The notes under the pieces were generated by a model. It was given only the letters and a program-made list of their open reading frames with translations. It did not search any database and was not told where the DNA came from. 64,000 nt of DNA from Cristatella mucedo (taxonomy: Eukaryota; Bryozoa; Phylactolaemata; Cristatellidae), in assembly GCA_009760855.2 (NCBI GenBank), contig WPIO01000055.1:1976501-2040500 (forward strand), read 5' to 3'. Positions 25,815 to 26,315 of this stretch are shown in pieces; position 1 is the stretch's first letter; each line of letters opens with the position of its first letter. The position numbers and the translations under genes were made by a program.

Positions 25815-26315
25815 CTGCTGCTGCTGCTGCTGCTGCTGCTGCTGCTGCTGCTGCTGCTGCTGCTGCTGCTGCTGCTGCTGCTGCTGCTGCTGCTGCTGCT
25901 GCTGCTGCTGCTGCTGCTGCTGCTGCTGCTGCTGCTGCTGCTGCTGCTGCTGCTGCTGCTGCTGCTGCTGCTGCTGCTGCTGCTGCTGCTGCTGCTGCTG
26001 CTGCTGCTGCTGCTGCTGCTGCTGCTGCTGCTGCTGCTGCTGCTGCTGCTGCTGCTGCTGCTGCTGCTGCTGCTGCTGCTGCTGCTGCTGCTGCTGCTGC
26101 TGCTGCTGCTGCTGCTGCTGCTGCTGCTGCTGCTGCTGCTGCTGCTGCTGCTGCTGCTGCTGCTGCTGCTGCTGCTGCTGCTGCTGCTGCTGCTGCTGCT
26201 GCTGCTGCTGCTGCTGCTGCTGCTGCTGCTGCTGCTGCTGCTGCTGCTGCTGCTGCTGCTGCTGCTGCTGCTGCTGCTGCTGCTGCTGCTGCTGCTGCTG
26301 CTGCTGCTGCTGCTG
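25815..26315 (+). repeat. (CTG)167 trinucleotide repeat
   Basis: This is an uninterrupted run of CTG units (CAG on the - strand) of 501 bases. It ends 117 bases before the first recognised WRN exon, so it lies in an intron or the 5' region. It opens Ala, Leu or Cys frames on + and Gln, Ser or Ala frames on -. None has other coding support. Confidence 0.98.

Follow-up and report, generated by a model that had tools for sequence, protein, structure and literature searches.

The 64-kb window, by which we mean the whole stretch of DNA analysed, carries 501 bases of uninterrupted (CTG)167, and this tract is probably an ordinary CTG microsatellite, one of many that have grown independently across the genome, with its position at a WRN-type helicase gene most likely incidental. 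The tract was read directly from the assembled sequence, and Tandem Repeats Finder agreed (167 copies, 100% matches, 0% indels on 25815-26315), which upholds the earlier note's description of a pure (CTG)167 of 501 bases. The window also holds a much shorter tract of the same kind.

25815..26315, + strand (CAG on the minus strand): pure (CTG)167 microsatellite, from direct reading and Tandem Repeats Finder.
56896..56934, + strand: shorter pure tract of 13 CTG units, from Tandem Repeats Finder and the listing of pure tracts.

At 25815-26315 short units lie head-to-tail without interruption, as in a microsatellite. The tract is not a product of chance, because 572 Mb of random sequence with the same composition would be expected to hold even (CTG)11 only about 2e-11 times. 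Its 167 units exceed the length of about 50 units that marks a disease-type CTG expansion. The claim that the length falls in the human disease range agrees with the ~50-copy threshold given in PMC5985359. The purity of the tract fits a recent expansion, and the microsatellite is probably unstable.

We counted pure CTG tracts in the whole assembly (572,011,866 bases in 688 contigs, the window lying on contig C507) as overlapping pure (CTG)k matches on both strands, and derived tract numbers from the differences between counts at different k. Overlapping counts of 21761 at k=14 and 20649 at k=15 give 1112 tracts of at least 14 units, or 1.94 per Mb. Counts of 5221 at k=58 and 4553 at k=66 give a mean of 83.5 tracts over thresholds 58 to 65 ((5221-4553)/8), i.e. 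about 84 tracts of at least 58 units. The 4553 overlapping (CTG)66 matches put the mean length of tracts of at least 66 units near 120 units; if the tail were exponential, about 13 tracts of at least 167 units would be expected. Between 14 and about 61 units the numbers decay on a scale of 18 units; extrapolation gives N(66) = 1232, compared to 4553 observed, a long tail 3.7 times heavier than the body predicts. A tail of this shape is what an expansion threshold would give. Because tracts of at least 14 and of at least 58 units are so numerous in the same genome, the locus is not special, and the earlier note's emphasis on the WRN locus gives way: nothing singles it out among the long tracts found genome-wide. 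Taken alone the tract is ordinary for its genome, which probably tolerates many tracts of disease length, and the interest lies in the roughly 84 long tracts and in the heavy tail. The introns and the LINE type suggest that this genome is an animal's.

Individual tracts were examined at 70 loci, which cover the first 74 of 100 listed places, come from the first contigs and have a 5' neighbour of the tract other than G. These loci contain 83 tracts of at least 11 units (range 11-154, median 18), four of them at 126-154 units and none between 64 and 125. Tracts of at least 58 units make up 5 of the 62 sampled tracts of at least 14 units, which resembles the genome-wide share of ~83.5/1112, so the sample looks fair. 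Since 167 units exceeds the sample maximum of 154, the window tract belongs to the extreme tail.

The 150-base flanks of the longest tract at each of the 70 loci were compared with one another and with those of the window tract. The window flanks matched none of the flanks of the 70 sampled loci, and no element was common to all flanks in the set. These results point to independent origin at many loci rather than spread within one element, and a mobile element as the general cause was ruled out by the lack of any element common to the 150-base flanks of the 70 tracts. The matches that did occur were of triplet-rich sequence and of the duplicate pairs L033/L036 and L064/L067 (26 identical bases); a weak one joined L020 and L025 (69% over 85 bases), and others covered short pieces, such as the 37 bases of L010/L018. 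Single tracts do lie near dispersed elements: a LINE-like copy is some 37 bases away at L010, and a different repeat some 32 bases away at L014. The window tract follows a repeated element at a greater distance.

24166..25008, + strand: remnant of a repeated element common to other loci, identified by genome matches and ending about 800 bases before the tract.

We take this element to be an L2-like LINE. Other parts of the window, at 1842-2899, 8135-11517, 30130-31170, 59137-59633 and 62074-64000, hold copies of a LINE-like reverse transcriptase family, presumably also L2-like, some of which end beside an ATT/TAA tract. The mean GC content of the 150-base CTG flanks (70 loci and window) is 55%, compared to 49% for the window, and CTG tracts may favour GC-richer DNA.

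One of the duplicate pairs bears on changes in tract length. L033 and L036 form an inverted duplicate on contig C11, near 602 kb and 1.83 Mb, and are 93-95% identical on both sides of tracts of 30 and 25 units, respectively. Because the two tracts differ, and provided that both copies are correctly assembled, the length must have changed after the duplication, and the two loci are a natural pair for measuring such change. The other pair, L064/L067 on contig C19 near 1.09 and 1.16 Mb, consists of CTG arrays with 26 bases of non-CTG sequence in common next to the repeat; in L064 these 26 bases occur twice within 80 bases.

Repeats of this kind are error-prone, and the true tract might be much shorter and have been inflated by the assembler. 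We consider this unlikely on the basis of the sequence beside the tract and of repeats elsewhere in the genome.

25300..25810, + strand: left flank of the tract, with one genome match, which is itself; match counts are lower bounds.

A genome-wide search with this flank, in which counts are lower bounds, revealed no second haplotype or duplicate of the locus and hence no conflicting copy. Tract lengths also vary across the 70 loci, from 11 to 154 units. Moreover, (ATT)58 is absent from the genome while (ATT)11 is common, which would not be the case if the assembler inflated triplets in general.

The comparison with other repeats used the same anchoring for all motifs, with GTC as the reversed CTG control. 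At 11 units the anchored genome counts were 639 for CTG, 988 for ATT, 406 for CGG, 0 for GAA and 8 for GTC, and the reversed form of GAA gave 1. The reversed forms of ATT (329+316) and CGG (236+238) belong to the same repeat class as their forward forms and are no independent control. CGG is the other hairpin-forming triplet class. ATT is thus commoner than CTG at 11 units, though it gave zero matches at 58. All three pure ATT/TAA tracts listed in the window sit at the ends of LINE-like copies, so the ATT counts serve as a control for length and not for origin. Pure (CT)87, of 174 bases, gave 4203 matches genome-wide (overlapping matches, not distinct tracts); as it is common too, great length combined with purity also occurs outside the hairpin-forming triplets. 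The window itself has dinucleotide tracts that are long and pure, e.g. (TC)63, at 38812-38937, 48888-48947, 32631-32698 and 2797-2844. It also contains two near-perfect minisatellites, at 35020-35299 (26-base unit, 10.8 copies, 99% match) and 4869-4961 (15-base unit, 6.2 copies, 100% match).

For an ordinary microsatellite we propose that CTG/CAG tracts arise independently at many loci and would grow by slippage, with hairpin-assisted expansion probably acting past a few tens of units. The place of the window tract in the 5' part of, or just upstream of, a WRN-type gene would most likely be a matter of accident, the tract would have no selected function and, if transcribed, the RNA would carry (CUG)167. 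Both slippage and hairpin-assisted expansion are described for CAG/CTG repeats in other systems in PMC12708500. Mammalian microsatellites likewise include more long pure repeats than expected, up to disease lengths, according to PMC12769509, a survey that, unlike ours, covered human and over 300 mammals; its authors regard the long-repeat tail as generic and explained by inherent instability. In a literature search, the titles and abstract openings among the matches listed described no organism with such a pattern.

A broader proposal, tentative and rather improbable, is that CTG/CAG tracts throughout the genome are pushed beyond a threshold for expansion in the germline, leaving dozens at human-disease length whose RNA and DNA structures are tolerated, the WRN tract being one example. 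Expansion thresholds and the tolerance of long CUG/CAG repeats have been studied mostly at single human disease loci. If the lengths are confirmed on reads, germline expansion thresholds and the cellular tolerance of many CUG/CAG repeats would become testable, and if the genome-wide proposal is true, this genome would be a natural model of both expansion and tolerance.

The ordinary microsatellite that we favour was also considered in relation to the nearest gene. The earlier note had placed it 117 bases before the acceptor of a WRN helicase exon, and candidate transcript features do surround it.

23001..24000, strand not assigned: CpG-rich stretch some 2 kb ahead of the tract, a possible promoter, with CpG observed/expected of 1.63 and 1.46.
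26345..26346, + strand: donor-like TAG/GTGTGT directly 3' of the tract, crude score 7.99, use putative.
26372..27160, + strand: open frame of 263 codons adjoining the tract, a putative exon with no Pfam match and with a donor-like GAT/GTGAGT at 26885.
26431..26432, + strand: AG proposed earlier as the acceptor, weak by a crude matrix.
25686..26405, - strand: open frame, antisense to the gene, that contains an ATG and codes for 167 Gln, from the open-frame listing.

Of 2000 first-order Markov simulations, 14 gave a frame as long as that at 26372-27160, which thus exceeds the length suggested by chance and is plausibly, though not certainly, coding. Its donor-like site at 26885 scored 7.93 in the crude splice scan. 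A Pfam search of the frame gave no match, nor did a PDB search with its 26381-26884 part at E up to 1. The distance from the end of the tract to the first base after the AG is exactly the 117 bases claimed, and a WRN-type gene does lie downstream on the same strand, as the joined coding pieces described below indicate. However, the AG is not among the five that scored above zero with the crude splice matrix, and the adjoining frame, with its poor acceptor and no Pfam or PDB match, did not bear out its assignment as a WRN exon. Given this poor acceptor, the donor-like site at 26345 and the possible promoter at 23001-24000, the tract can be intronic, in a 5' exon or upstream of the helicase gene. 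Neither Rfam, at its gathering threshold, nor a tRNA scan gave a match in the 64-kb window.

Use of the donor-like site at 26345 would make the tract exonic. In SCA8-type arrangements a sense CTG is paired with an antisense CAG frame for polyglutamine, and on this model the CTG would lie in a 5' sense exon here, and polyglutamine could be made from a CAG transcript of the opposite strand. The good score of the 26345 site, the antisense frame with its ATG and run of Gln, and the CpG observed/expected values (1.46-1.63 at 23-24 kb, with 1.04 at 26.5-27 kb) are in keeping with this arrangement. However, none of the six frames of pure CTG can contain a stop codon, which makes an open frame through the tract expected regardless, and the antisense frame is probably a by-product of the pure tract. 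Furthermore, in none of the three sense frames does a Met follow the last stop ahead of the tract. We therefore regard an exonic, bidirectionally transcribed tract as very improbable.

Whether intronic, exonic or upstream, the microsatellite has a helicase gene on its 3' side. The query for this gene was made from five + strand coding pieces at 31.7-40.9 kb, joined by hand, and compared with 40 distinct PDB sequences.

31732..31845, + strand: helicase coding piece, within the joined-piece WRN match; its own frame has no Pfam match.
32205..32471, + strand: open frame with a helicase piece, within the joined-piece WRN match; Pfam matches at chance level only.
34215..34325, + strand: helicase coding piece ...ISLMEDQV; Pfam DEAD, E 3.7e-4, below cut-off.
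36293..36400, + strand: helicase coding piece containing a DEAH box; its Pfam match to DEAD is weak (E 0.024, below cut-off).
40714..40878, + strand: coding piece for the C-terminal lobe of the helicase; above cut-off in Pfam (Helicase_C, E 1.6e-8).
28721..29032, + strand: acidic open frame, a plausible linker before the helicase core; no Pfam match.
52553..52894, + strand: open frame with weak HRDC similarity; Pfam E 0.028, below cut-off.

Among these 40 sequences the best match of the joined pieces was WRN (214.6 bits, E 9.5e-63), followed by RecQ (4tmu; 153.9 bits), RecQ1 (141.7), RecQ5 (126.1) and BLM (118.3, E 3.4e-33). Pfam matches across the five helicase frames comprised one above cut-off and two to DEAD below it, with none of note in the other two. 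Judged by sequence similarity, the gene downstream of the tract is a WRN-type RecQ helicase gene on the same strand, and a sense transcript crossing the tract would for that reason carry CUG. The predicted fold of this RNA is one long imperfect CUG hairpin that also pairs parts of the flanks (-293.6 kcal/mol; z -5.5 against 20 shuffles).

The earlier note suggested a role specific to the locus, in which the helicase pre-mRNA would be spliced or expressed differently because of its CUG tract, perhaps with feedback through WRN-type action on the repeat structures; the shared strand and the predicted hairpin are in its favour. Hairpins and cruciforms are named among WRN substrates in PMC12708500, and in PMC7988464 the human intronic CTG expansion in TCF4 is accompanied by RNA foci, capture of MBNL1 and retention of the intron. 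However, about 84 tracts of at least 58 units are spread over the genome, and the exon and acceptor adjoining this one are putative. Judged by title and abstract opening, none of the five papers listed for WRN helicase, CTG repeats and introns dealt with such a tract. A link of the tract to WRN function is unsupported, and we find a locus-specific role quite unlikely.

Known human expansions resemble the ordinary microsatellite favoured here in part. At TCF4 CTG18.1 (Fuchs corneal dystrophy) the CTG is also in the sense strand of the gene, within an intron as is plausible here, and the 167 units of our tract lie above the 50-copy risk level given for it in PMC5985359. In contrast, CTG18.1 is a single unstable locus, whereas the window tract is one of about 84 and is known from sequence alone. 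The repeat in DMPK (myotonic dystrophy type 1) is, as is generally known, likewise a pure CTG giving a sense CUG at disease-range lengths. Unlike the window tract, which lies upstream of helicase coding pieces, it is found in the 3' UTR, as stated in PMC5090246.

The helicase gene itself may lack an exonuclease domain, as judged from profile matches. The exonuclease family PF01612 gave nine matches in the genome and none on C507, the contig of the window, in a search that could miss short exons. Helicase and exonuclease on separate genes are known in other lineages, and a separate WRN exonuclease gene may lie elsewhere in this genome, e.g. among the further PF01612 matches on C50, C687 and C111. 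Other matches were rejected as candidates: one of three pieces on C653 was tested and proved EXOSC10/Rrp6-like, and the two strongest both lie on contig C3. C3 is bacterial: its loci L039 and L040 have a GC content of 35-37%, with single-frame gyrB, lnt and RNase D-like genes. Identity of the gyrB fragment to the 80 best records retained, nearly all alphaproteobacterial by title, does not exceed 66%, and C3 probably comes from a symbiont or a contaminant in the assembly.
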